A stretch of 29,226 nt of DNA from a virus. The notes beneath the pieces are model-generated. The model did no database searches and was not told where the DNA came from. It saw nothing but the letters and a program-made list of their open reading frames with translations. This document shows positions 1-24,916 of the stretch, piece by piece. Position numbers and translations under genes: made by a program. Positions within the stretch are counted from its first letter, which is position 1. Every line of letters begins with the position of its first letter. Location of the stretch: positions 1-29,226 of the IMG/VR virus record IMGVR_UViG_3300007276_000208. The stretch is one strand, 5' to 3'.

Positions 1-3000
1 CAGCTTCTGCTTCTCTGCCAATATCTAAATACCAATTTTCATCCGCACCTGAGTTGTACTGATCTACTATAATCTTTTTTAATTCACCTATAGTTCTGAA
101 ACTTTGTTGCTCACTTCCTTCAGCTCTATAAATTTCTTTTAATCTTAAGTTTTTTTCAGTTTTTATTTGATCGAGAACATCTTGAAAATCTTTTATAGGC
201 ATATTATCTATTTCTTCACTAGTCTTATCTGCAAAGAGTTTATCAAGAAGATAACCTATCCTACTTGGTGGCATTCCATTGTTTGTCAAACGCATCTGAG
301 AAGTATCCGCCCTAGAAAATACCGCATCTTCTTCTTCTGCATCATCTCTTAAAACATTTTTTGCTTCTTCTTTTGCCGAGTTTATAACGATATCAGGATT
401 TTCTTCAAAGAATTTTCTTAGTTTGTTAATTACTTGTGATCTTGTTCTGTTTTCAAATAAACCATTGTTTATCATTTCCATTAATTGAACAGCGTTAGTA
501 ACACCTACTTCTTCCGCAGAAGATACTGTAGTAAAAAAGAATGCTTTAATTCTTTCAAATAAAGATTTTGGTTTTCCTGTAACTTTTACTTTATTTCCCT
601 TTACATCAAATAATTCTTTATTCTTTGTGTAATGAGCAAATAATTCTGCTACAGATTCTTCCTCTACTAATTGCCTGTAAGTTGCGTCATAACCTGGAGC
701 AATATCATCAAAATCAGGAAATGGCTTTTTCTTTAATTGTCTAGTGTAAGATCCTCTTTTTTCAGGAGTTCCAAAATATATATCTTTTTGTCTGTCGTAA
801 AAACTTTGATAACCTTGAGCAACTCCCATTAATCCATAAGGATTTTGTGTCATTGTTTCAGAGTAAGTTTTTTTAGCAAAGTTTGTTAATATCTTCCATT
901 CAGATTCCTTTATTAATCCCACAGTCATTAAATAATGTATGAACTCGTGGTTCATTGTTTTTAATCCACTATCTAAGGCTATACCATCTAAAGTTATTAA
1001 TTCAGATTTTGGAGCAGCATCAACGTAATATTTTAAACTTGGATCTAATGCTTCTACTTTTTCTTGATCAACTTTCCTACCTTTACTTGGATGAGTTTTG
1101 TGTATACTTCTTATCTTGTCACTTATTTTTTTTAAGTATTGATCTTTTTTAGGATTAGAATCTGAGCTCATAGCTATTTCTATTTGATCAGGAGTTAAAT
1201 CTGTTAGTTTAGCAATTCTTCTAAATTCATTTTGCAGTTCAATTTTCTTTTTATAATATAGTGTAAAAGGTAACGCTATGTACTTATAAACTCCTTGTTC
1301 AGCTTTGAAGTCTTGAGCATTATCTTTAACGCTCCTTACAAAACCAAAAGCATTTTTTTCTGTAACACTCATAGCATCAAATGATAAACCATCAGGACTA
1401 ATACCCATATTATCCATTTTTATAAAGGCTTCGGAAATACCTAATTTTTTTGCTTTTGCTCTAGCTTTAATCATAAATTGTTCTTTTAATCTTGCTTGAT
1501 TAATTTCAGATTTTAAAGGTGCAATTAAACCTGCCTCTACAAACTGTTGTCTTGCTATTGATAAGGAACTAGTGCCACCATCCCCACCCCAAGTTTCACC
1601 AATGATAATATTAGGTTCTACATATCCAGTTGTGTCAATCTCTTCTAAATAAGGACTAGAAGGTTTTGGTTGTTTTTTACGAGCTATCTTTTCAATTTGA
1701 GAAGTTGTTAATAAGTATTCATTGGGATTTAAAAAGTTTCTTTCTAAACCAAGCCTTGATCCATACTCTGCATTTGATTCGCTTAATTTTGCACCTTTAC
1801 CAAGCATAGATATTTTAAAATCATTTTCTGTAATAATTTCATCATTAAGTTTTGTTGTGTCAATACCAGATTCTTTATCTAATCTTTTTCTTTCAAGTCT
1901 TAAAATTAAATCTTGTTTTGTTATTTCACTAGAGTCATTATTAAATTCATTTTTAATAATTCTTTTTAACTCAGCTCTAGGGAACATTCTTGCTAACTCA
2001 GCAGTGCTCAAATTAAAAAGATCTTTATTATAATTATCTAATGAAACTCTTTTTTCAGACATTGAAGTTAAAACAGGAGCTTGATAATCTTTTAAGTTTC
2101 TTCCTTCTTTAAAAAATTCATATTTACCTGATGAGTTTTTAGTAAGTCTTCCACTTTCTACAAGCCTTCCAATCATTTGATCTAAAGCATTATCACTTGT
2201 TACACCTGATATTTCTTTTATTTCTTGTTTAGAGTATTGTTTATTTTTTGTTTTAATTTTAGTTTTCTTATTAGTAGTCGCACTTAATTCTTTTTCTACT
2301 TCTTTAATGTAATTTCTATCTTGGTCTTCTAATATTTTATTTATATTCTCTGAGGAATATAAGTTAGGTCTTACATCAATCATGGGTAAAAGTTCTCGTT
2401 GAGTAGGTAATTGTATTAACCTTCTTAGAACTATTGCTTTTTGTTGATTGTTCATTTTACTAAAAGAACTCTCACCTGTTATAGCTTTTAAATAATTTGA
2501 AAAATTATCGCTAGGTTTGTTTATATTTTCTTTAATATTTTTGTCTTGTAAAATACTATTTATATCCTTTTCTTTAGTTCCTTTATCCATTAGACCATAT
2601 GATTCTGCAAGTACATCAGGCTCAGAAATATTTTTTCCAACTTTAGAATTTGCTTGTATAAGAGCAATTAATTGCGTTGTATTATTCTGTGCACCTGAAT
2701 CATAACTTTGATTTTTTGCATCTCTTAAAGTTTCAGATCTTGAAGATACTGCTTGTAACCTTTCTTGCAAAGATTGTGCTGAGTCAAAATCTAAACCTTC
2801 TTCTTTGTTATTTTCAGAAATGCTGTTGTAGATTATACCATTGTTTTCATCTATGACGTTGTAAGATTTTATTTCTTCTTCGCCTTTTTGTTTTGTTCTT
2901 AAATATTCTTTAGCTTCTTTTAGTTTAAAGAAGGTTGGTAATCTGTCACCTCCAAGCCTACCAATGTCTTTTTCTTGTCCTGTTCCAACCTCTACTACTT

Positions 3001-4189
3001 GATATTGAACACCTATTCCTGCTTGATACCCTGTGTTAATTATTTTCCACTTTTTATCTGTTGTTTCATAGTCTGTTGTAGTGTCAAAACCTGTATCTTT
3101 TTTCTTTATTCTTTTAACATCTGAATCTTCATAAAAAGTAGGAACAACTTCAGACTCACCGCTTTCAACAACATTAAATTTAGGTATAGGAACACTAGAA
3201 TCAACAAACTTTTCTGACTCTTCTATGGTTTTATCTACTTCATCTTTTTTATTTGTATCCTCTATATTAACATCTTTTTTGACTCTACCTGGCACAAGAG
3301 CATTAATAGCTAAATCAGAAATAAACCCTGTAGCACCACCAACAGTTAAATTATCCCATATACTTTCAGTGTTAAATATTTTTCTATTTTCATCATACAA
3401 ACCTCTAGCAACAGCATCTTGAGCTATCCCTGCTACAGTTTCTTGAATAGCTTCGTTTCTTGCTGTGGCAGTTGCTCCTGCTAATTTAGGATATAATTTA
3501 CTAAATCCACTCTTTATAATTTCTTTTGAAGCATCATTGTTTGGTAGTCTTTTGAAAAGTTTTTCTATTGGATACATTTCACTTAATCCAATAAGACCAC
3601 CAAATGACTCTGCAATAATTTCTGTAGCAGTATTAATTCTTTTACCTTCGTTTCTTAACTCATTTATAGAATTAGCTTGGTCTGAAACTCCTGCACCAAA
3701 AGCTATTCCTAAACCTGTTCGACCAGCATATTTATCTAACTTATCTAAAACAGCAGGAGAAAAAGCCTTTTGTGATCGTAAAGCAGTAGTGGCTAATCTA
3801 GGAGCACCAAAGGTTGCAAAACTACCTATTCCACTTCCAACTTTACTCGTAAACAAATCTCCGTACTTTTTATCCGCAGAAATTTCAGTCTTTTTTCTAA
3901 AATCATCTTGTAAACTTTGTAATCCTTGCGTAATAAAATTATCATTACCTGCATCAAAAAAAGAAGATATACCTGTTGCTGATGTTAAAGTTGTATCAAC
4001 TACGCCTTTTGGTATATTTCTTAAAGCATAAGCATATCTTGCAGGATCAAGGTAACTGACATCTTTTTTTTGAGGTGAATAATTACTATAAGTTTCTGCA
4101 ATTTTTCGTTTTATAGAGTTAATTTGATCACGATTAAGATCAGATGGTATTTCAATCGTTTTGCCGTCAGGTAAATTAATTATAGGCAC
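1..4189 (-). CDS. Giant virion/polyvalent protein with HExxH zincin-like peptidase (3' end outside window)
   Basis: Open frame from a GTG at 4189 to the left edge, 1396 codons visible with no stop, so the C-terminus is missing. The start begins MPIINLPDGKTIEIPSDL, like the N-termini of other large phage virion proteins. Residues about 60-270 are Gly/Ala-rich with hydrophobic stretches. Residues about 645-690 look like a winged helix (KQEIKEISGV...DNALDQMIGRLVESGRL). A metallopeptidase signature follows: HEFIH at residues 1081-1085 (bases 935-949), then VEEESVAELFAHY with the candidate third ligand E1182 (bases 644-646). This H-E-x-x-H plus distal E arrangement is that of zincin domains embedded in phage polyvalent and MuF-type proteins. 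As the last and largest gene after the ejection-protein candidates, it is probably packaged and injected, acting on the cell wall or host proteins. The virion role is inference; the motif is seen directly. Confidence 0.8.
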   Translation of the reverse strand, partial: MPIINLPDGKTIEIPSDLNRDQINSIKRKIAETYSNYSPQKKDVSYLDPARYAYALRNIPKGVVDTTLTSATGISSFFDAGNDNFITQGLQSLQDDFRKKTEISADKKYGDLFTSKVGSGIGSFATFGAPRLATTALRSQKAFSPAVLDKLDKYAGRTGLGIAFGAGVSDQANSINELRNEGKRINTATEIIAESFGGLIGLSEMYPIEKLFKRLPNNDASKEIIKSGFSKLYPKLAGATATARNEAIQETVAGIAQDAVARGLYDENRKIFNTESIWDNLTVGGATGFISDLAINALVPGRVKKDVNIEDTNKKDEVDKTIEESEKFVDSSVPIPKFNVVESGESEVVPTFYEDSDVKRIKKKDTGFDTTTDYETTDKKWKIINTGYQAGIGVQYQVVEVGTGQEKDIGRLGGDRLPTFFKLKEAKEYLRTKQKGEEEIKSYNVIDENNGIIYNSISENNKEEGLDFDSAQSLQERLQAVSSRSETLRDAKNQSYDSGAQNNTTQLIALIQANSKVGKNISEPDVLAESYGLMDKGTKEKDINSILQDKNIKENINKPSDNFSNYLKAITGESSFSKMNNQQKAIVLRRLIQLPTQRELLPMIDVRPNLYSSENINKILEDQDRNYIKEVEKELSATTNKKTKIKTKNKQYSKQEIKEISGVTSDNALDQMIGRLVESGRLTKNSSGKYEFFKEGRNLKDYQAPVLTSMSEKRVSLDNYNKDLFNLSTAELARMFPRAELKRIIKNEFNNDSSEITKQDLILRLERKRLDKESGIDTTKLNDEIITENDFKISMLGKGAKLSESNAEYGSRLGLERNFLNPNEYLLTTSQIEKIARKKQPKPSSPYLEEIDTTGYVEPNIIIGETWGGDGGTSSLSIARQQFVEAGLIAPLKSEINQARLKEQFMIKARAKAKKLGISEAFIKMDNMGISPDGLSFDAMSVTEKNAFGFVRSVKDNAQDFKAEQGVYKYIALPFTLYYKKKIELQNEFRRIAKLTDLTPDQIEIAMSSDSNPKKDQYLKKISDKIRSIHKTHPSKGRKVDQEKVEALDPSLKYYVDAAPKSELITLDGIALDSGLKTMNHEFIHYLMTVGLIKESEWKILTNFAKKTYSETMTQNPYGLMGVAQGYQSFYDRQKDIYFGTPEKRGSYTRQLKKKPFPDFDDIAPGYDATYRQLVEEESVAELFAHYTKNKELFDVKGNKVKVTGKPKSLFERIKAFFFTTVSSAEEVGVTNAVQLMEMINNGLFENRTRSQVINKLRKFFEENPDIVINSAKEEAKNVLRDDAEEEDAVFSRADTSQMRLTNNGMPPSRIGYLLDKLFADKTSEEIDNMPIKDFQDVLDQIKTEKNLRLKEIYRAEGSEQQSFRTIGELKKIIVDQYNSGADENWYLDIGREAEA

Positions 4190-4195
4190 AGCATA

Positions 4196-4202
4196 CCTCT
4201 CT
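4196..4202 (-). promoter_or_regulatory. Ribosome binding site deciding a GTG start
   Basis: The minus strand reads AGAGAGG six bases before the GTG at 4189. It overlaps the TAG stop (4201-4203) of the preceding gene. An ATG at 4194 sits one base after the AGAGAGG, but it reads only four codons to a TAA, so GTG is the start of the giant protein. Confidence 0.7.
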
Positions 4203-5862
4203 AACTCAAATTGTTTACATAGGCTTGTATTTCAGCTTGAGCATTTTCTAATGTTTCACCACCGGTAGGTGCAACAGAAGGTGTTTCAGAAATTTTTTGT
4301 GTAATACCTTGCCCTATACTTTGACCTGACATTTCAGCTTGTAACTTAAGAAGTTGTTCAAGAACATTATTGTATCTTTCACTTCCTGGCTCAGTCTCAC
4401 CTAAAATTTCTAATGTTGCTTGTAAGTATTCCAACTGTCTTACTCTAGGATCAAGACCTTGCATTCCTTGTATCATAGATAAATCATCAGAAAGATTTTG
4501 TCTTTCCATATCTTGTTCATCTTTTATAATATCGTAATTACCTTGCACTATATCATTAAGGCTAGTAGCACTTGCAATATTAGAACCTAAACCCATAAGA
4601 AGTCTTTGTCTTCTATTAGATTCTCTTTCATCTGCTGTAGGATAGCCAAATTGTTCACTTGCCATTTCTAAAGGAGTCATTGGTCGTGTTGGCACTGAAT
4701 TGTTTTCCTCAAGTTTTTCAGTTTCACCAGGTAACATACTAGTTATTCCAAGCCCTCCAACAGTAGCTGAAGTTTTAGGATATTTTGCTATAAGTGATTG
4801 CCCACCTTTTCTACCTTTAGTAAAAATGTTATCTTTTTTACTCTTTCTAGGATTTTTAAATTTTTTCCACGCTTGTGCTAATCCTTTTTTACTTAACTTT
4901 CCTTTATTATATAAGCCGATTGCTGCTCTTAAACCTCTAACAGTCATACCAAGTCCTGCACCAATAGGTATAAGTGAAGTTAATCCAAATGCTATTGAGG
5001 CAGGACTATCGGTGTCAATAAAAGCACCTTCAGAACCAATAACCTTACTTAGAAGACCTCCTCCTTCTTTCATTCTTTTGACTTGCCCACCTTCTGCATA
5101 ACCTAAACCACCTGTACTAAATGGAATTGATCCTATAATTCCAGCTTTCATATCATTTTCATCTTCGCTTTGATCATTCATAATTGCACTTAAATAAGGA
5201 TTAAAATCATACGAACCTCTTAAATTACCTTGTCTATTTACATTTACGTTAAAATTATCTCTTCCAAGGTTTAATGAATCAATTTGATCATCTCCAACAT
5301 CAACATCTAAATCAACAGGAAGTCCTGAAATTGGTGCTTGTGGTATAGTTTCCTGATTACTTCTTTCATAATCAATCATATCTTTGAAGTCTTCTTCAGC
5401 TTCTATTTTATTTAATTCATCAAACTCTTCAGGAGTTATGGCTTCTTCATCACCTAAGTATGGTGTTTCTTCTTCACCTAAAAGATCCATTAAGCCACCT
5501 GGCGGTAAAGAAAACTCTTCTCCCATTTCATCACTTAATCTAACTGTTCTTCCTTCTGCCATCATTTGCATAGGTGGTTGTGGTTGCTCTAAATTTGCTA
5601 TTCCCCCACTAGCTTCGACTGAGAGGTTGGGGGAGGATAAGTCGGTACTAGCAGGGGAAGCAACTGATGAAACAACGTCTTCAGCTACTGTTGATGTTGG
5701 TGACATGTTTGTAGAAGAGTTTTGTAATGCCTCTCTATTTTTAATTTCTACTAATGTTAAAGATCCATATATAGAGTTAGGATCGTCTACCATATCTATA
5801 AGTCTTTGCATTGGCATATAACTTAATTCTTCTTGTAATTGTATTATGTTTTTACCTAGCAT
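4201..5862 (-). CDS. Probable internal virion / DNA-ejection protein, 553 aa
   Basis: N-terminal residues 9-45 (LQEELSYMPMQRLIDMVDDP...LTLVEIKNRE) match a segment I know from marine phage internal virion proteins, with the pattern L-x-x-E-L...L-x-x-M...P...L-V-x-x-E-I-x-x-R. The middle is acidic (about 110-200). Residues 255-261 carry YAEGGQV, a motif shared with other proteins here. Two glycine-rich hydrophobic segments follow, about 288-308 and 362-378, separated by a very basic stretch (319-352). The C-terminal part is helical and Gln-rich. The ATG at 5862 has AAGGAGT five bases upstream and overlaps the preceding gene by 11 bases. Acidic, membrane-prone and basic segments together suit a protein ejected with DNA, but no enzymatic domain is visible. 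Confidence 0.7.
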   Translation of the reverse strand: MLGKNIIQLQEELSYMPMQRLIDMVDDPNSIYGSLTLVEIKNREALQNSSTNMSPTSTVAEDVVSSVASPASTDLSSPNLSVEASGGIANLEQPQPPMQMMAEGRTVRLSDEMGEEFSLPPGGLMDLLGEEETPYLGDEEAITPEEFDELNKIEAEEDFKDMIDYERSNQETIPQAPISGLPVDLDVDVGDDQIDSLNLGRDNFNVNVNRQGNLRGSYDFNPYLSAIMNDQSEDENDMKAGIIGSIPFSTGGLGYAEGGQVKRMKEGGGLLSKVIGSEGAFIDTDSPASIAFGLTSLIPIGAGLGMTVRGLRAAIGLYNKGKLSKKGLAQAWKKFKNPRKSKKDNIFTKGRKGGQSLIAKYPKTSATVGGLGITSMLPGETEKLEENNSVPTRPMTPLEMASEQFGYPTADERESNRRQRLLMGLGSNIASATSLNDIVQGNYDIIKDEQDMERQNLSDDLSMIQGMQGLDPRVRQLEYLQATLEILGETEPGSERYNNVLEQLLKLQAEMSGQSIGQGITQKISETPSVAPTGGETLENAQAEIQAYVNNLS

Positions 5863-6835
5863 TTTGACTCCTTGTAGCTAATGCATTTGCTATTCCTAAT
5901 GCTGTTAAACCACCTCTTCGAGGAACTCTTCCTCCTCCTGCCATGCTAACTAATCCACCGCCTGATCCGAATAAAGATGCGGCTTGTAAGCCTCCACCTA
6001 CTAATCCGCTAAACAATCCTGGTTGTTGAGCGTATGTGCTAACTGTTCTATTAGGTTCAGAATATGATCCTTTAAGAATATTTTCATAAAAACCAAGTGA
6101 TCTTTGTGGGTATTCTTGTTGACGTAAGAAATCTTGATATCCCATATCAAGACTAGCTTGTTGTAAAGCTCTATCTTGCTCTCCCACAAGCTGTAAGTCT
6201 TTTAATCTTGCTTGAGCCATTGTTTGTTGCTGACCACCTAATTTTGAAAGTGCTATAGCTTTTCTTTCGTTAGCGGCTCTATCAAGTTCAAATCTTCTAT
6301 TAGCATCTAAAAATGCATCTTGTCTTCCTGTTTTTTCAATATCAGATAATTGTCTGTTTAAATCTCTTTGTCTTTCAGATTGCATTATAGATTCTCTATA
6401 ACCACCTAAACCACCTTGTGCTGATGCCTGATCTCTAATACCACGAGCTTGAATAGCTGATTGTTTTTTTGTTTCATCTTTTAAAGGATCAAGTGCTTGT
6501 TGAAAGTATGGTGACATATAAGCATCTGCAATTCCACCTGTCATAACGTCAGGAGAGCTTGCAGTTCTTTGATAGGCTTGTCTTGATGCAATAGGATCGC
6601 CAAACATAGCCATAGATGCTAAACCTTGTTGAGACATCCTTTCAGCAGGTGAAAAACCTGCTAATCTTTGTTGTGAATAAGGTAAGTAAGGTTGATTACT
6701 TTCAAACTCTGAACGACCTAAAAGAGCTTGGAACTGAGGTAATACCTCAGGAGGCATAGTTAAGTTAGTTACTTGTGTTTCTGTAGGTGCTGAAGAACCG
6801 CCACCTTTACCAAATCTTCTTCTACGATACGTCAT
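5852..6835 (-). CDS. Probable internal virion (ejection) protein, 327 aa
   Basis: The N-terminus MTYRRRRFGKGGG is strongly basic. The body contains QPYLPYSQQRLAGFSP followed by long Gln/Arg/Ala-rich helices (about residues 115-235), a composition common in podovirus internal core proteins. The pattern QPY-x-PY...R-x-AGFSP, then YMSPYFQQALDPL, is one I recognise from conserved marine phage virion proteins. The C-terminus is Gly-rich with MAGGGRV at about 298-304. I chose the ATG at 6835, which has AAAGAGG at good spacing; an in-frame TTG at 6853 would add six residues but would place that ribosome site inside the gene. It overlaps the upstream gene by 14 bases. Role in DNA ejection is inferred from position and composition. 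Confidence 0.72.
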   Translation of the reverse strand: MTYRRRRFGKGGGSSAPTETQVTNLTMPPEVLPQFQALLGRSEFESNQPYLPYSQQRLAGFSPAERMSQQGLASMAMFGDPIASRQAYQRTASSPDVMTGGIADAYMSPYFQQALDPLKDETKKQSAIQARGIRDQASAQGGLGGYRESIMQSERQRDLNRQLSDIEKTGRQDAFLDANRRFELDRAANERKAIALSKLGGQQQTMAQARLKDLQLVGEQDRALQQASLDMGYQDFLRQQEYPQRSLGFYENILKGSYSEPNRTVSTYAQQPGLFSGLVGGGLQAASLFGSGGGLVSMAGGGRVPRRGGLTALGIANALATRSQNAR

Positions 6836-7277
6836 TTGTAAACCTCTTTTCAAAAGCTACGGCTTTCCTACTCCAATCATCTTCTTTAATCCAACTCCAA
6901 AATCCTGCTCTAGCTACAGCTTCTATGCCATCACAATGACAATCTTTAGCAAAACTTTCTAAAATATCTATAGCTTCTTTTGTCCACATTTGTTGTTTTA
7001 CTCCTGCGACATGATCAATGTTTAACATTTTTAATCCTGTTGGATAATGTGTTATCTGAGTTATACCACAACCCATTAACTCAGGGAATTCTTCTTTTTT
7101 GTAAACAATCCATAAGTTACTTTCTCCTGACAAACACTCTTCTAGTAAATCACGAAGAGTAATTCTTCCATCGCTTCTCTTTGCACTTTTCTTTAAATGT
7201 TTTTCAGCAAAAGCCCATACATGAAGTATATCTTCTGGCTTTACTAATGTTTTTACAATTTCGTCTTTTTCATTCAT
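6822..7277 (-). CDS. GNAT-like phage protein (T7 gp13-type position), 151 aa
   Basis: The order of elements suits a compact acetyltransferase-like fold: an N-terminal helical part, a strand with NLWIVYKKEEFPELMGCGITQI (about 54-75), another strand KMLNIDHVAG (83-92), then WTKEAIDILESFAKDCHCDGIEAVAR (98-123) and a C-terminal F-E-K-R. Small proteins of this kind recur in phage virion operons, including the region of T7 gp13 among the internal virion genes, and are often annotated as GNAT-like. A clear acetyl-CoA loop (Q/R-x-x-G-x-G/A) is not evident, so it may be a non-catalytic relative. It starts with ATGA overlap to the 935-aa gene and sits between ejection-protein candidates. Substrate unknown. 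Confidence 0.6.
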   Translation of the reverse strand: MNEKDEIVKTLVKPEDILHVWAFAEKHLKKSAKRSDGRITLRDLLEECLSGESNLWIVYKKEEFPELMGCGITQITHYPTGLKMLNIDHVAGVKQQMWTKEAIDILESFAKDCHCDGIEAVARAGFWSWIKEDDWSRKAVAFEKRFTNDVS

Positions 7278-10081
7278 GCTGGCATCACGTTGTCTAGGTT
7301 AATAGGATCAGGTTGTTTTTCTGTATCGTGTTTTTCTGTTCTGACTCTTGATAAAAAATCATCCATAATTCTTGCACCTTCTTCGCTGTTGCCATCACCT
7401 AAGTTGCCAACAACATCAGCAGGAACAATGTATTCGCCAGGACTTACTGCAACTTGCTCTTGATCTCCAATAACTCCATTGACCTTATCATCCATTCCGC
7501 CACCTTCTCCCTGAATCATACCTTCTTGTTGAGGTAATGGAATTAACTCTGCTTTTAATTTAGCGTATGCTTCTTCTCCGAAAAGTCTTATAAATTCTTG
7601 CATAATAGATCCGTCATCTTTTAATCTTCCTAGAATAACGTAAGACATTTGTTCTAATAGTTCTCTGTCTCCTTTAGGCATTTTTTCTTGTATGACAGGG
7701 TTTGATAAAACAGTTTCTACTTGATCAGATTTTTCTATTATCTGACCATCTATTTCTACAGTGTCAGAACTTTGCATTATTTCTCCGCCTACTGCATATA
7801 GATTATCTTCCATACCACCTGTTGGTAATGGTTGTGTGTAATTTTCTAAAGTTTTAATTGAATTTAGTATTTGACCGCCACTTGCCATTCCAAGTTGTTC
7901 TTCAGTTGTAGTTTCTACTGGATTTAGTAAAGTTCCGTCATCTGCTAAAGAAGTTGCTGTGCGTAAAGGTACATAACCTTGTCCTGATGTAATCATGAAT
8001 TCCACAAAAGTACCATCTGCTTGTGGAATAATTGTAAGTAAGTTACCTGTGTTAGTATCAAATCTTAAATTATTATCTGTAGTACCAGTAGTCTCATTAA
8101 CAAAATCAGTGTTTACTTTAGAAAAATCAGTTAATTTATCTAGTGTAGTATCTCCTGCATAACTATCTAACTGATACATATAGTTATCTAAATAATTAGC
8201 AGGTGTTCCAAGTCTTTCTTTTGCTTCATCAGTTAAATAATCAAATATAGTATCATCAACATTTAAACGACCTGCGTCATCACCTGTTTGTACAATTAAA
8301 TTTGATTTAGGATCTATTGATAGATCAGTAAATGTTGATCCTTGATCTGTAGCTAATTCTGTAGCTATTGTTGAATCTTTACCTTCTATCTCTGCTAATA
8401 AATTTTCTATTCTTGTATTAAGAGAATCTACCTCTGACTGTAAAGGATTAATTGGAGCATCACCTACAGGTGCTGATCCAAAACCAGGAGTTCCGTATCC
8501 ACCGCCACCAAAAATACTGTTTAACTGTTGATCTTGATATTGATAATAAGGAGTGTTTTGCATGTAAGAACTTAAATAATCAGGTATACCTTTTTCTACA
8601 TTACCTAAAAGGTATTCATTATAAGGAGTTCCACCTGCAAATAAATTAGGATCATAAGAACCTTTATAAACATTTTGACCGCCTACTCTTACTACGTTAG
8701 GTATTCCTCCAGTTCCGCCACTACCTATTTCGTATTGTTGAGAGCTGTCAGCACCACCAATAGTTGATGTTGGTTGAATATTAGAAACGTATTGATACTC
8801 AGGCATAAATCCTGGCATATAATCATAAGGAACAGGAGTTAATCCTCTACCTCTAATTTTTCCTGCCATTTCTTCGTCTGTATAATAGTCTCCTGTAGTC
8901 ATATTTATTCTAGTAGGATCATAACCAAGAGAAAAATTACTTATGTCAGGCATTATAGGATCAGTAGGAGTAATATCTTCAGAAGATTGCGTTGTTACTG
9001 TACCATCTGTCGTATTACCATCTGTCGTATTACCACCTATGGTGCTAGTATTGCCTATGTAAGTTCCGTCTTTATCAAAATATTGACTAAAATCTATACC
9101 ACTAAGATCTCCATAATTAAAGTATCCACCAGGATATCTTCTTTCAACTTGTCCGCCATTGGCATATGAATTTTCTATTCTTCCGCCATCATAAGCAAAG
9201 TTATCAAATTTATTATATTGATTATTACCGCCTACGCTAAATGGTGATTGTGTTCCACCTGGTGTGTTTCTAGATGTGTATACTGATCCACCCATACCTG
9301 GTGCACTTGGTGTATAGTTATCTAGTATTTCATTTTTTTTGTCTATTCTTGCTTGTGATGCCATTGCATTACTTTTTTCAAAATCATCTATATCTTGCTT
9401 TACAGCAAGACCACCTGCACCTGAAGCAAAAGGAACTATATTTTTCATATCTGTTGCGGCAGTAGCAAAATTTCCAAGATCAAAATTTTGAAATGGTGAT
9501 TGACGTGCCACATCTGCTGCAGATGTAATATTATTATTAAAGAATTGTGTAGGATTTTGCCCTGCAACATTTTGAGCTAAAAATTCAGGACTATACTTGC
9601 CAAGTTCAGTAATAGTTTTAGCACCCTCTGTACCGCCTGAAAGTATACTTGTTAAATCTCCAGTAGAGGCATCAAGACCTAATCTAGTGGCTTCTTCTCC
9701 TGCTCCTGTTAAAGCTGCGGCATCACCAAACATATTAGCACCTGCAAATGTCATAAGTCCAGTCATCATACCTTCTTCTATACTACCTGATTCTAAAGTT
9801 GATGCTGTACCTGCACCTAAACCAGCAAGACCTGCTGTTCCTAAAGTAGCTCCAAGGGCAGTGCCTCCAAATAACATGGGAGCTAAAGCTCCTCCAATTA
9901 TAGGTGCTAAAGCAGGTAAAAATGCTTCAGGATACCCTGTATCAGGGTTTACTGTTAATGGTGCTACATTAGAAAGAGCTTGAACTTCAGAAGGATTAAC
10001 ATGCATAAGTGTTGTATCACCATAACGACCTCTACTTGCTACTTGATCTGCTATTCCTTTGTAAGGTAATTTGTTATTCAT
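7274..10081 (-). CDS. Large Gly-rich virion protein, 935 aa
   Basis: The N-terminal third has an Ala/Gly-rich hydrophobic region (about 52-93, 105-125) of the kind seen in membrane-active phage proteins. The centre (about 260-560) is low-complexity and rich in Gly, Tyr, Asn and Thr. The C-terminal domain (about 780-935) is well ordered. It includes ELLEQMSYVILGRLKDDGSI, then GGMDDKVNGVIGDQEQVAVSPGEYIVPADVVGNLGDG and a terminal VMPA. I recognise that GGMDD...V-x-x-SPGEY-x-VPADVV pattern from many marine phage virion proteins. Four copies of a short GG motif occur: YDGGRI (297-302), YANGGQV (306-312), MASGGQI (732-738) and YAVGGEI (762-768). It begins with a TAATG junction. Likely part of the tail or internal core; function is not established. 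Confidence 0.7.
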   Translation of the reverse strand: MNNKLPYKGIADQVASRGRYGDTTLMHVNPSEVQALSNVAPLTVNPDTGYPEAFLPALAPIIGGALAPMLFGGTALGATLGTAGLAGLGAGTASTLESGSIEEGMMTGLMTFAGANMFGDAAALTGAGEEATRLGLDASTGDLTSILSGGTEGAKTITELGKYSPEFLAQNVAGQNPTQFFNNNITSAADVARQSPFQNFDLGNFATAATDMKNIVPFASGAGGLAVKQDIDDFEKSNAMASQARIDKKNEILDNYTPSAPGMGGSVYTSRNTPGGTQSPFSVGGNNQYNKFDNFAYDGGRIENSYANGGQVERRYPGGYFNYGDLSGIDFSQYFDKDGTYIGNTSTIGGNTTDGNTTDGTVTTQSSEDITPTDPIMPDISNFSLGYDPTRINMTTGDYYTDEEMAGKIRGRGLTPVPYDYMPGFMPEYQYVSNIQPTSTIGGADSSQQYEIGSGGTGGIPNVVRVGGQNVYKGSYDPNLFAGGTPYNEYLLGNVEKGIPDYLSSYMQNTPYYQYQDQQLNSIFGGGGYGTPGFGSAPVGDAPINPLQSEVDSLNTRIENLLAEIEGKDSTIATELATDQGSTFTDLSIDPKSNLIVQTGDDAGRLNVDDTIFDYLTDEAKERLGTPANYLDNYMYQLDSYAGDTTLDKLTDFSKVNTDFVNETTGTTDNNLRFDTNTGNLLTIIPQADGTFVEFMITSGQGYVPLRTATSLADDGTLLNPVETTTEEQLGMASGGQILNSIKTLENYTQPLPTGGMEDNLYAVGGEIMQSSDTVEIDGQIIEKSDQVETVLSNPVIQEKMPKGDRELLEQMSYVILGRLKDDGSIMQEFIRLFGEEAYAKLKAELIPLPQQEGMIQGEGGGMDDKVNGVIGDQEQVAVSPGEYIVPADVVGNLGDGNSEEGARIMDDFLSRVRTEKHDTEKQPDPINLDNVMPA
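9001..9030. repeat. 15-bp perfect tandem duplication
   Basis: TACCATCTGTCGTAT occurs twice back to back inside the 935-aa gene, encoding the doubled NTTDG segment near residues 351-360. It is in frame and lies in a low-complexity linker. Confidence 0.9.
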
Positions 10082-16588: not shown

Positions 16589-17452
16589 TTAAGATGTTCC
16601 TAATTGTGGTTGAGAATACTTAAATATTTTACAAGCTGCATAATTACCAAATCCATTTCCATTACTAAAAGATAATTTAAAACCATCTATTCCTACAGAA
16701 CTTGAATAATAGCTTGTCCAATTATTTCCTGTTTTACTTGCTTGTAAAACACCAGAACCAATATATTTACCAGCTACTCTATAGTTATATCCATGACTTG
16801 GATGATAATAACCTGATGCTTTAGTATAATCCCAAGTTAACATTGCAGGTGCATCAGTTCCTCCTCCATCAGGAATAAACACATCAATCCATCCCCAAGC
16901 ACCTAGACCAGGCAAAGGAGTTCCAAAAGCTGAATAATTACTAGTGTTATCTGCTTTACTTGTCCAACTAGTAAAATAACCACCTAACTCAAATTGAGAA
17001 GAATTTCTTTGTCCACTATCAGTAGTGCCATAAGCATCTAATTGATAAAATCTATAATTACAAGCAGAACCTATTTGGTCTTGATTTACAACACTACCGC
17101 CTTTTGTAAAATGAAAATATAAAGATGTACTTCCTGTATTATAAATAGGAGCTAAACCATTTATATAAATTCTATAATTATTTCCTCTCGTAAATACATT
17201 ATTAAATTGTATATTAGAACCTACTCCTGTTCCTTGAAATTTAGTTCCATTAGCAACTTCTTCAAATCCATTTGCAGAACTTACGCCACCCCATGATAAA
17301 GTTCCACTTCCGTTTGTTTTTAAAAAATCATCAGCAGTACCATCGGCAGGCGGCCAGGTATATGTTGTATTTCTTGATTTAATTTTAACGTCTTTTGTAG
17401 CGGCAGAAGATAAAGTTAAATCGTTATCATCAGATTTTATTTCATTAGTCAT
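16589..17452 (-). CDS. Fibre-like appendage protein D, 287 aa
   Basis: Residues 1-56 include LTLSSAATKDVKIKSRNTTY, then TWPPADGTADDFLKTNGSGTLSWGG. The second part is the DGTA-x-x-x-LKT-x-GSG-x-L module found once or twice in each gene of this array. The rest (about 60-287) is aromatic- and Gly-rich beta structure: YRIYINGL, SLYFHFTKGGS, YGTTDSGQRNSSQFELGG, WDYTKASGYYHPSHGYNYRVAG. Its tip shares no obvious sequence with the other three, consistent with a distinct receptor-binding end. It starts with a TAATG junction. Assignment as a fibre is from composition, module and neighbours. Confidence 0.68.
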   Translation of the reverse strand: MTNEIKSDDNDLTLSSAATKDVKIKSRNTTYTWPPADGTADDFLKTNGSGTLSWGGVSSANGFEEVANGTKFQGTGVGSNIQFNNVFTRGNNYRIYINGLAPIYNTGSTSLYFHFTKGGSVVNQDQIGSACNYRFYQLDAYGTTDSGQRNSSQFELGGYFTSWTSKADNTSNYSAFGTPLPGLGAWGWIDVFIPDGGGTDAPAMLTWDYTKASGYYHPSHGYNYRVAGKYIGSGVLQASKTGNNWTSYYSSSVGIDGFKLSFSNGNGFGNYAACKIFKYSQPQLGTS

Positions 17453-18465
17453 TAATTAACCACATCATTTTTAAACCAAGCCCACAAAGTAACAACTCCA
17501 TCTTGAAAGTTATAAGAACTATTACCATTTTGTATTTTAAATCCCATGGTATGTTGATCTGTTGAGTTATGAAAAGGGTATGAAAAATTTGATCCGTTGT
17601 TTGTGTAATTACTATTGTTATGTGAAATATTAGTATATCTAGCACATTCAGAACCAGTTCTACTAGCACTTACTCCTGCATTAAAATCATGCGACCAAGA
17701 AGGTGTAGAATATGCATTCCAAAAATCTACTGTTCCTGTAACACCTATATTAGAGGCTTGTCCTTGAGCTAAGGTTTGTTTTACACTAGCGCTATCTCCT
17801 GAGTTTATAGCTTGACTACCAGAGCTTCCAACTCCTACATTAATACCTGAAGAACTAGGAGTTAAAACTCCATCATTAGCAAGGAAACCACCATTACTTT
17901 GATAACTACCAAAATTATTACGCATTCCACCTGAATAATATCTTGGATTATTTGTTGTATTTCTTGAAGTAGCAGTTCCTGCTTGATTAAAAAAATCATA
18001 GTAGCATTCATAAGTTTGAGTAGCTGAATTATCAGATAAACCATAAAAATTTAATCTTAAAGCTAAAACATTACTAGATGTACTAGTATATGAAGTGGGA
18101 ACTGTTAAGGTAAAATTAGAAGCAGGTGTATCTGTTAAAGGACAATATTTATCACAAAATCTCCATCCTGTTTCTGTTGAATTAGCAGGGTTTGTTAGAG
18201 GACCACCTGCTTCTGAAGCAAATGTGGTTGTACCAGTGCTACTATCTGTTTGAAGTAACTGATTGGCAGTTCCATCTGCATTTGGCATTGTGTATGTTAC
18301 TGAGCTTCCGTCAGCACTTTTAAAAGCATTGTCAAGAGTTCTAAAACCTAAATTAGTTGAACCATCTGTTTTTAAAAATTGTCCTGCTGTTCCATCTGTC
18401 GATGGTAATTGAAAACTTGTTGTACTGTTTTGAGATTGTACTTTTTTTACTACTATTTTTCCCAT
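17452..18465 (-). CDS. Fibre-like appendage protein C, 337 aa
   Basis: The N-terminus MGKIVVKKVQ parallels MSK-x-VVNQ-x-Q of the next two upstream genes and is a likely particle-attachment segment. Two modules follow: DGTAGQFLKTDGS (24-36) and NADGTANQLLQTD (about 62-74). The body has GWRFCDKY, then TLTVPTSYTSTSSNVLALRL, both mirrored in fibre B. The C-terminus VVTLWAWFKNDVV matches the FK-x-GVV ending of fibres A and B. The middle is Ser/Asn/Gly-rich and unlike its relatives, as expected for the receptor-facing part. TAATG coupling at both ends. Confidence 0.7.
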   Translation of the reverse strand: MGKIVVKKVQSQNSTTSFQLPSTDGTAGQFLKTDGSTNLGFRTLDNAFKSADGSSVTYTMPNADGTANQLLQTDSSTGTTTFASEAGGPLTNPANSTETGWRFCDKYCPLTDTPASNFTLTVPTSYTSTSSNVLALRLNFYGLSDNSATQTYECYYDFFNQAGTATSRNTTNNPRYYSGGMRNNFGSYQSNGGFLANDGVLTPSSSGINVGVGSSGSQAINSGDSASVKQTLAQGQASNIGVTGTVDFWNAYSTPSWSHDFNAGVSASRTGSECARYTNISHNNSNYTNNGSNFSYPFHNSTDQHTMGFKIQNGNSSYNFQDGVVTLWAWFKNDVVN

Positions 18466-19445
18466 TAGCTAACTACTCCATTTTTAAATACTGCGTATAA
18501 TTCAATCATACCATCTACATAGGTTCTACCTGCACTGTTAGAAAAATTAAATCCCATAGGATTATTTCCATCTGTCCAATTTCTATCGTAATATCTTGTT
18601 GATTGTTTAAGATTCATAGAAGGATAATCAGTTCCTGAACCAGGTATTCTATTTTGATACCTTAAATCACTAGTAACTAAACCATGACGTTTGCCATTAT
18701 ATATATCTATTTGTCCAATCATTCCTTCAGATCCTGAATTATTATATACATCTGATGAATTATTAGCTGTAGCACTTTCAAAAGCAGGTGTATCTAAAAG
18801 GTTATAAGCATTTGGATAATACGCTGTTTGATTCCCTGTTAGTTCCATACCAGGACTTGGATTAGTACTCCAATTACCTTGAGATTGACTATTATATCTA
18901 GACCACCAACCACAAGTATAATGACTACTACCATTTTGATAATTCATTACAGTGCCGGCTTGATTAGTAGGTTTAATTCTAAGTGCAGTGTAAGCATCAC
19001 CACCAGCACTACCTCTTTGAAATCTGAGACCACGAATAATTAATCTGTAAGCCATTACATTTTCCATATTAGTAGTATACTGAGTTGGAACTGTTAAGGT
19101 AACTTGGTTAGGTGATCCATCAGTATACCTTTCGTATCTGTCACAAAGTCTCCATCCTTGTTGAGCACCATCTTTAGTTGTAAAAGGTGTAGGTGGAGAA
19201 AGATAACTAATATTGCTAGATGCACCATCTGTTGTAAAAATTTTACCTGCTGTATAAGTGTTAGGAAATTTTATTAAAGTACCATTACCATGCATAGGTT
19301 GGACACCACTCGCCCATCCTAAAGTTCCACTTCCGTCTGTAACTGTTGCTATTTGATTTGCACTTCCGTCTGCTGTCCACCATGTTAGTGCAGGTGCAGA
19401 ACCACCTGTACTATGTTGTAATTGATTTACTACTACTTTTGACAT
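18465..19445 (-). CDS. Fibre-like appendage protein B, 326 aa
   Basis: It begins MSKVVVNQLQ and carries DGSANQIATVTDGSG (26-40) as its module copy. Shared with fibre C are GWRLCDRY and TLTVPTQYTTN; NVMAYRL corresponds to fibre C's NVLALRL. The C-terminus is MIELYAVFKNGVVS, like fibre A's QLYAIFKDGVV. Between about 160 and 310 it is rich in Tyr, Trp, Asn and Gly and not obviously related to A or C. One-base TAATG overlaps link it to both neighbours. Most likely a short tail fibre subunit or a member of a heteromeric fibre. Confidence 0.7.
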   Translation of the reverse strand: MSKVVVNQLQHSTGGSAPALTWWTADGSANQIATVTDGSGTLGWASGVQPMHGNGTLIKFPNTYTAGKIFTTDGASSNISYLSPPTPFTTKDGAQQGWRLCDRYERYTDGSPNQVTLTVPTQYTTNMENVMAYRLIIRGLRFQRGSAGGDAYTALRIKPTNQAGTVMNYQNGSSHYTCGWWSRYNSQSQGNWSTNPSPGMELTGNQTAYYPNAYNLLDTPAFESATANNSSDVYNNSGSEGMIGQIDIYNGKRHGLVTSDLRYQNRIPGSGTDYPSMNLKQSTRYYDRNWTDGNNPMGFNFSNSAGRTYVDGMIELYAVFKNGVVS

Positions 19446-20404
19446 TAAACAACTCCATCTTTAAATATAGCGTATAGTTGAATTACACCTTGTCTCCAAT
19501 TACCACCATTAGTATAAATTCTTACTCCCATCATACCGCCATCCATATTTTCCATATCTCCGTTAGTAGTTGAACTTGTATAGGCATTAGATGATTTTTG
19601 TGGAGCAGGAAATTTATGATATTCCATATTGGATGTACTAGAACCATAAGCTCCTCCTGACCATCCATTCATAGATAAATTTCTTAGCATTGGATATATA
19701 TCAAATTCACCATTTTGTCCGACAGCATACTGTCCACTACTACCAGTTTCTAATCTGTTATCTTGCTGATTATCACCATAAGTATTGTAAGAAGTTGGAA
19801 CAGAACAAAAGCCATTAGTATTACTAGTAGGTTCTTGATTTAAAAGACCATTAACTCCGTAATTAGGATGAGCACCATAAGAGTAATAATTCCACCTGTA
19901 ATTTCCACCAAATCCACTAGAATTAAGAGCGGTGCTACCATCTTGCTTAAGAGGTATAAAATATATCTTACCACTTGAACTTGCTCTTATGCCATGAAAT
20001 GTAAGTCTAAAAGACACAATATCAGTATAATTTGTTGTGTAAGTGCTAGGAACAATTAAATCTACAGTATTTGAATTGTTTGCAGCCATTGCATCTCCTG
20101 TACTGCCCACTAAAACCATTCCATCTTGACTACCAACTGACATTGGGTTTGATGCTGTAGAATTAGCGTAAGATAATTGACCACTACCATTTGTCTTTAT
20201 AACTTGATTAGCACTGCCAGGTGCTGTAGGCATTGTATATGTTACTGTTTGACCACTATTTTTTACAGTGCTAATACCATTAACAAAACTAAGATTACCA
20301 CTTCCATCTGTTTTCATTACTTGATTAGCTGTGCCTCCACTTTGTGGTAAAGTGAATGCAGTTCCACCACTGTATTGAATTTGATTTACCACTAATTTAG
20401 ACAT
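19445..20404 (-). CDS. Fibre-like appendage protein A, 319 aa
   Basis: First gene of the array. It begins MSKLVVNQIQ, with modules GGTANQVMKTDGSG (23-36) and GSANQVIKTNGSGQLSY (63-79). It shares LIVPSTYTTNYTDIVSFRLTFHGI with the equivalent segments of B and C, and ends VIQLYAIFKDGVV. The variable centre (about 140-300) is Asn/Ser/Gly/Tyr-rich. AGGAG precedes the ATG, the strongest ribosome site of the four, so the later three may be translated by coupling from it. No depolymerase or intramolecular chaperone motif is visible. Confidence 0.7.
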   Translation of the reverse strand: MSKLVVNQIQYSGGTAFTLPQSGGTANQVMKTDGSGNLSFVNGISTVKNSGQTVTYTMPTAPGSANQVIKTNGSGQLSYANSTASNPMSVGSQDGMVLVGSTGDAMAANNSNTVDLIVPSTYTTNYTDIVSFRLTFHGIRASSSGKIYFIPLKQDGSTALNSSGFGGNYRWNYYSYGAHPNYGVNGLLNQEPTSNTNGFCSVPTSYNTYGDNQQDNRLETGSSGQYAVGQNGEFDIYPMLRNLSMNGWSGGAYGSSTSNMEYHKFPAPQKSSNAYTSSTTNGDMENMDGGMMGVRIYTNGGNWRQGVIQLYAIFKDGVV

Positions 20405-23818: not shown

Positions 23819-24916
23819 TTACTTATCCTTTTTATCAGAATATTTGTTTAAAAGAAACATAAGAAATTCTTTTCCATATTCTATATCAGAAAAACAATGT
23901 GTAAAGCTAGTACCTTCGGCAAAAGGATCTATTACTTGCATAATAGCTTGACCATTTCTTTGTTCATCTAATCCAAGATTTCTTGCATAATCATCAAAAA
24001 ATTTATAACCACGAGCACGAGCTAACCAATGAATTTTTCCATCATATAACTCATGTTGTGCTAACGCCCAATTATGTTTATGTCCTGATATGTATAAGTC
24101 AGCATCACTTTGCCATTTAGCTTTCTTCATCTGAGCGTGAAGCGGATTCCATTGTGAATGTCCTGGCATATCATGAGCCGTATAAATTTTACATTGCCTT
24201 CCATTAGGAAACTCAAGACATATTCTTGCATCCCAAGGCTCATATATTGTATGTTCTGATTTCATATATGTAATAGGATCACCTGCTCCTGACCAGAGAT
24301 CGTGATTACCCCCTACTAATAAAAGAAAGTCTCCTGCTTTTACAAGCCATTCCACGAGCTTCCAACTAGTTTCAGCAGACGTGTCCTGATTGGCGTAGAG
24401 CCTTCCGAGACGACCTACCCAATTATTTTGTAAATCACCCAAAGAACATCCCTTTATATTAGGATGAGAGTTTATTATATCTAGGTCTCTTCTAAGAGTT
24501 ACCCAATCACATCCGTTATCATCAATATGAGGATCGCCTAACCAAACTAATCCTATAGGCTCATCCTTTTGAATTTTAATTTTGTGCCATTTGGTTTTTT
24601 CTTTTTTATTTTTAGCTCTAGTAAATCTTTTTGTAAGATGTTCTATGTATTCTTCTATATCATCTTCTGCATCAGGATTAATACTTTCAAATCTTGGAGA
24701 GAAGACATCTTCTGAATTAGGTATTTTATGTTTAAAATCTTTATTCCAAAATTCATCTTCAGTAATATCCCATCTTTCTCTAGCCATAGTGCAATGAGAA
24801 CGAAAGGTAGTTAAAGCCATACCTAAATCAATAGCTGCTTGCTTTTGTGTTCCTGATATAATGAATTGATCTAAAGCATTAATTAATACTTGGTCTTTGA
24901 CTGCGTGGTTTCCCAT
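23819..24916 (-). CDS. HTH plus calcineurin-like metallophosphoesterase, 365 aa
   Basis: The catalytic domain has the calcineurin-type metal-binding motifs in order: GDPHID (127-132), GDLQNN (160-165), GGNHDLW (202-208), TAHDMPGH (247-253) and GHKHNW (278-283). These ligands coordinate a two-metal centre in phosphoesterases. The second motif reads GDLQNN where many members have GDxxDR, so the substrate may differ. Residues 8-50 look like a helix-turn-helix (INALDQFII...TQKQAAIDLGMALTTFRSH), perhaps a DNA or end-binding module. The domain combination and location inside the structural operon are seen directly; a nuclease or nucleotide phosphatase role is inference. GGAGGA precedes the ATG. Confidence 0.8.
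   Translation of the reverse strand: MGNHAVKDQVLINALDQFIISGTQKQAAIDLGMALTTFRSHCTMARERWDITEDEFWNKDFKHKIPNSEDVFSPRFESINPDAEDDIEEYIEHLTKRFTRAKNKKEKTKWHKIKIQKDEPIGLVWLGDPHIDDNGCDWVTLRRDLDIINSHPNIKGCSLGDLQNNWVGRLGRLYANQDTSAETSWKLVEWLVKAGDFLLLVGGNHDLWSGAGDPITYMKSEHTIYEPWDARICLEFPNGRQCKIYTAHDMPGHSQWNPLHAQMKKAKWQSDADLYISGHKHNWALAQHELYDGKIHWLARARGYKFFDDYARNLGLDEQRNGQAIMQVIDPFAEGTSFTHCFSDIEYGKEFLMFLLNKYSDKKDK

Follow-up and report, generated by a model that had tools for sequence, protein, structure and literature searches.

Genes and features at the locus

We analysed a 29,226-nt stretch of marine phage DNA (the window), positions 1 to 29,226 of IMG/VR record IMGVR_UViG_3300007276_000208. One end of it is occupied by the 5' part of a gene for a giant polyvalent-type protein (positions 2-4189, minus strand), which is read from a GTG start at 4189 and is cut by the window edge after 1396 residues. 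Direct reading of the sequence places AGAGAGG, a likely ribosome-binding site, at 4196-4202 on the same strand, 6 bases 5' of the GTG. Upstream on this strand lie a DNA-ejection-protein-like gene (phrog_4287; 5852-6853, minus strand; E 2.1e-11) and genes for a stabilisation-like virion protein, two SU10-type adaptors and the major capsid protein. With phages MinM2, HTVC027P and HTVC023P, the capsid protein shares 58-69% identity and the stabilisation protein 27-32%; the genomes of these phages contain no match to the window's giant and possess a different giant module. Two HExxH sites of MinM2, considered as relatives of the site described below, found no support.

Elsewhere in the window, a DNA-repair-exonuclease-like protein (phrog_7339, 23822-24916) is encoded among the virion genes, between two SU10-adaptor-like genes and upstream structural genes. 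Four consecutive tail-fibre-like genes (319, 326, 337 and 287 residues; 16589-20404) begin alike and are apparently tandem duplicates.

When the window protein or its domain alone was compared with Pfam, PHROGs, PDB, 50,697 phage records and GTDB genomes, zero matches were obtained. Scans of IMG/VR with either query gave a sole match, a full-length relative of 2914 residues on one contig (L001), with 66% identity across the 1396-residue window part. A 935-residue protein without a Pfam or PHROG match (window 7274-10081), encoded two genes upstream of the ejection-protein-like gene, is conserved at the same place in L001. The C-terminus of L001 carries LPD38 (E 7.3e-29), a phage-only domain of polyvalent proteins (PMC5512222); the window stops short of the corresponding part. 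It is through the LPD38 of L001 that the window protein displays the character of a phage polyvalent protein, namely a giant, multidomain protein with phage-type LPD domains. The wider family was reached only by scanning with the C-terminal LPD38 module, and the best 80 of at least 588 related loci were used.

LPD38 giants of the cultured phages Escherichia phage PTXU04, Vibrio phage 1.232.O and the pelagiphages HTVC204P and HTVC034P share a C-terminal module of ~700 residues and a like place in the virion gene cluster. Their N-terminal parts differ, and those checked do not contain the peptidase domain described below. In HTVC204P and HTVC034P, the genes that precede the giant are those for tail tubular, acetyltransferase and internal virion proteins, in similar order. 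Because of the position of its gene and the nature of its neighbours, the window's giant is probably packaged and ejected together with the DNA.

A zincin-like metallopeptidase domain and its active site

The original prediction, made from the sequence, had proposed a zincin-type peptidase within the giant. Its motif HEFIH (residues 1081-1085) is present at 935-949 on the minus strand, in a reading frame open over at least 1396 residues, as had been claimed. The 1396 residues contain 5 His, and from this composition HExxH is expected ~0.0015 times. A profile of 56 relatives, built without the window and L001, matched the window at residues 1077-1258 (envelope 1015-1270) with an E value of 6.9e-28, which is somewhat flattering because these relatives came from a window-seeded iteration; the same profile did not match the reversed window sequence. 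An earlier profile match using set A7, to which the window belongs, was discarded as circular and replaced by this one. In a single-sequence phmmer search of the 80 loci with the window domain, distant homologues were detected already at an E of about 1e-8. Sequence comparison and modelling of a relative thus support the assignment of residues about 1015-1262 (404-1147, minus strand) to a zincin-like metallopeptidase domain with a C-terminal helical extension.

After iteration, the domain was found in L001 and in 62 of the 80 LPD38 giants (the best 80 of at least 588 loci). In the remaining 18, the N-terminal half is out of view because the start of the contig or locus interrupts the open reading frame. 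The zincin keeps its position and sequence in giants whose downstream modules differ widely. From these comparisons, the full giant is most likely ~2900 residues long, with the zincin in its N-terminal half and the conserved LPD38 module at its end.

Among 64 homologous giants, H1081 and E1082 are conserved in 61 and H1085 in 63, consistent with their predicted roles as zinc ligands (H1081 and H1085) and general base (E1082). E1177 and G1243 are invariant (64 of 64), and E1178 is kept in 61. G1243 belongs to a conserved helical extension, GKPKSLFERIKAFF...NNGLFENR (residues 1205-1248; 446-577, minus strand), which also forms helices in the model of the relative L028.

The third zinc ligand had been predicted to be the Glu of ESVAELFAHY (E1182; codon 644-646, minus strand). 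This residue does lie 101 residues past H1081, but position 1182 is Glu in only 46 of the 64 giants, Asp in 17 and Met in one, so the proposed ligand role is not supported, in contrast to the conservation of the two His. One helix turn away lies the pair E1177-E1178 (656-661, minus strand; E1178 codon 656-658). In three giants (L041, L044 and L045), H1081 and E1082 are replaced and E1178 has become Ser, with 1177 still Glu and the flanks conserved and in register. As the loss of E1178 coincides exactly with that of HExxH in the same three giants, E1178 behaves as the third zinc ligand. It is most likely this Glu, 97 residues past H1081, that would complete the site, E1182 being more likely a second-shell acidic residue. 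The spacing from HExxH to this Glu is 97 in the window and 99 in L001, the two with the longest insertion, and 51-83 in other relatives. In thermolysin-type gluzincins, an acidic second-shell residue lies one turn beyond the ligand Glu; by analogy, E1178 as ligand and an acidic residue at 1182 would fit this pattern. Four more giants with a dead zincin were found later (L103, L106, L107 and L166); in these, as in L041, L044 and L045, HExxH and the distal Glu are replaced jointly, and the protein is otherwise kept, including the fold region.

Fold of the domain

AlphaFold2 modelled the window's own domain sequence poorly (pLDDT 67, hardly any strands), and a fold search with this model gave no zincin match. 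Modelling of L028, a better-sampled relative, with the same sequence set gave a pLDDT of 83 and a pTM of 0.77. The order of elements in this model (helix, five strands, HExxH helix, Glu helix) is the zincin topology, and its Glu helix is the later helix in which a third ligand is expected. The zincin fold anticipated for the window was thus obtained with the relative and not with the window's own model. Against PDB, M34-type zincins (the lethal-factor and PPEP-1 class) ranked first for the L028 model, with a best E of 0.27 and none significant; the likeness is one of fold to this model, without sequence similarity. Comparison with viral models gave four matches below 0.001 (E 2.3e-8 to 5.9e-4), all of them large proteins and one named as a large polyvalent protein. 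Lower-ranked matches included PolyVal ART proteins, an M34 endopeptidase and a metallopeptidase.

The expectation that a profile of polyvalent peptidases would recognise the domain failed: Pfam MPTase-PolyVal (PF18818) gave no match in seven records searched with an E limit of 1, and membership in this family was rejected. No Pfam match was found for the window or its relatives. The window's poor model and the absence of sequence matches in Pfam, PHROGs and PDB would agree with HEFIH being a chance motif with no peptidase behind it, a reading that is hardly credible as it is contradicted by conservation in dozens of divergent giants and by the zincin fold of the relative. Conservation and fold, together with the LPD38 of L001 and the ejection-like neighbour, bear out the proposal of a zincin peptidase in a giant polyvalent-type and probably injected protein.

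An S-R linker motif at module borders

In one subfamily of giants, the L028 clade, a short linker motif recurs. In L028 and L033, P.FSR ranked first among repeated patterns in an unbiased count, P[TLNVSA]FSR occurs 42 times in giants versus 0.34 in shuffles, and the consensus across 106 distinct sites is [DQ][ILV]P[LTN]FSR. Within the clade, intact giants contain 126 motifs in 108,196 residues, versus 3 in the 108,284 residues taken from other ORFs of these contigs. Homology breakpoints between giants lie within 12 residues of a motif in 650 of 2106 cases, versus 174 (maximum 254) at random positions. This clustering indicates that the motif marks module borders.

PxFSR was rejected as a universal motif, being confined to one clade and some scattered relatives. 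Other clades have variants in the form of repeated S-R linkers: IAYSRR in L074, IRESRR in L079 and L081, KFSLRAP in L083 and L095, and RASRR in L031. Between zincin and LPD38, a generalised pattern, [FYEML]S[RL]R, shows 7.7-fold enrichment; it does not occur upstream of the zincin, and other ORFs show no enrichment. The pattern was chosen post hoc, and its enrichment serves as support only. Its enrichment in the C-terminal module derives at least largely from a conserved NFSRRG there.

We propose that zinc would be coordinated by H1081, H1085 and E1178, with E1082 as general base, and that the zincin would mainly serve to process its own giant, cleaving, either in cis or in trans, the short S-R-type linkers that separate the modules. 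The cut modules would be released as separate proteins. The motif would be the site of cutting and this zincin the enzyme, acting at some stage in the virion or after entry. To this explanation as a whole, a zincin domain in a packaged and ejected polyvalent giant that mainly cuts itself at S-R linkers, we assign a probability of about 0.6.

Alternatively, the zincin might mature other virion proteins (capsid, ejection or tail) during assembly. Virion proteases commonly cut several proteins, and the neighbouring gene is ejection-protein-like. However, the motif is ~42 times rarer in other ORFs of the same contigs, and such a role is decidedly improbable, even if cut sequences of another kind are possible in those proteins.

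In one clade, the motif is lost together with the active site

Self-processing was examined further by comparing intact and dead zincins. Among the unique L028-clade giants with a complete C-terminus (n=47), the motif is present in 38 of 40 with an intact site (mean 3.35) and in none of the 7 with a dead site (Fisher 5.7e-7, kinship uncorrected). A tree was built from the C-terminal module, a region that does not include the zincin. On it, dead copies branch off as at least two distinct lineages, each with active giants that carry the motif as neighbours. For three motif losses scattered at random over 91 branches, the crude probability of striking both dead branches is 7e-4. The co-loss rests on two, perhaps three, independent losses. 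Two related giants, L133 and L134, are exceptions, having an intact zincin site and no PxFSR linker.

The erosion of the linkers can be followed at individual sites. At two orthologous linkers, in separate dead lineages, FSR is replaced and the flanking modules remain in register, as exemplified by DDIPNFSR versus KMPVNE, KLPELN, PLPKNE and GMPEVSE. This in-register replacement bears on the possibility that the motif signals packaging, binding or a recombination border without proteolysis and that its co-loss is a lineage effect. Such a signal would be consistent with the shuffling of modules at the motif and with dead copies representing only two or three lineages. It is nevertheless rather improbable, in view of the replacement of FSR with flanks kept in separate dead lineages and of the differing S-R linkers that unrelated clades carry downstream, never upstream, of the zincin.

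The co-loss bears likewise on an injected effector role, in which the zincin would cut a host protein (e.g. a defence or envelope protein) and the S-R linkers would be mere spacers or docking sites. This role is an accepted alternative in PMC5512222, and the conservation of the domain in place and sequence despite very different downstream modules would suit it. Yet it predicts no erosion of linkers in the same protein upon loss of the active site, and we consider it possible but unlikely. The original prediction had left the target between host and phage proteins; the evidence from relatives favours linkers between the giant's own modules, ahead of a host target or another virion protein.

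Further observations argue against self-processing. Vibrio phage 1.232.O has one VTFSRAG yet no HExxH, and in phage N4 the related virion RNA polymerase enters the particle uncut (PMC5512222). We see about even odds that the family consists of true polyproteins, in which the zincin would cut clade-specific S-R linkers at module borders, enzyme and sites would co-evolve, and dead lineages would have lost their sites and use the uncut giant.

A putative processing site in the window

The window contains a single FSR (residues 1291-1293; 311-319, minus strand), located 113 residues past E1178 in an acidic linker, RDDAEEEDAVFSRADTSQMR (residues 1281-1300; 290-349, minus strand), which may be a processing site. 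It is not preceded by a proline. In L052, L075, L087 and L093, the first FSR is found at +109 to +117 from the Glu. At the position of the window FSR, L001 has LLSR, and a search of L001 for a repeated linker-like motif found none. Because of the missing proline, the LLSR and the lack of repeats in L001, self-processing is carried mainly by the relatives, in particular by the loss of the linker motif with the active site in the L028 clade, and is only suggested for the window protein.

Relation to known systems

Among the domains of polyvalent proteins from phages and plasmids, zincin-like MPTases are the most frequent, and processing of these proteins by them has been proposed (Iyer et al. 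2017, PMC5512222), with P1 DdrB noted as processed (PMC5512222). The MPTases of N4 virion RNA polymerase and P1 DdrB likewise have an HExxH helix and a distal Glu helix and form part of giant phage proteins with many domains that are presumed to be injected (PMC5512222). The window zincin differs from PF18818 in giving no match to it, and 12 clades are distinguished by Iyer et al. 2017. A zincin domain in such giants is therefore of an already known kind; what is new is the linker motif, together with its disappearance from lineages whose zincin is dead. The terms FSR, linker and processing site do not appear in the main text of PMC5512222, and a literature search for processing sites of the FSR type in internal proteins of phages yielded none. 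A motif that vanishes with the active site provides a concrete candidate cutting site for the 2017 processing proposal (PMC5512222). It also offers a means of recognising where modules meet in those giant phage proteins for which databases give almost no matches, and the natural dead-zincin lineages serve as controls.

The giant of Shewanella phage X14 (L014:4918-5550) contains HEMAH and a later E-x-x-A-E helix, with weak but real similarity to this zincin (hhalign P 1.8e-6). The spacing from HExxH to the Glu helix is much shorter in X14, and the site was missed by the HMMER profile. Shewanella phage X14 is a cultured phage with an LPD38-type giant and a possible bench system.
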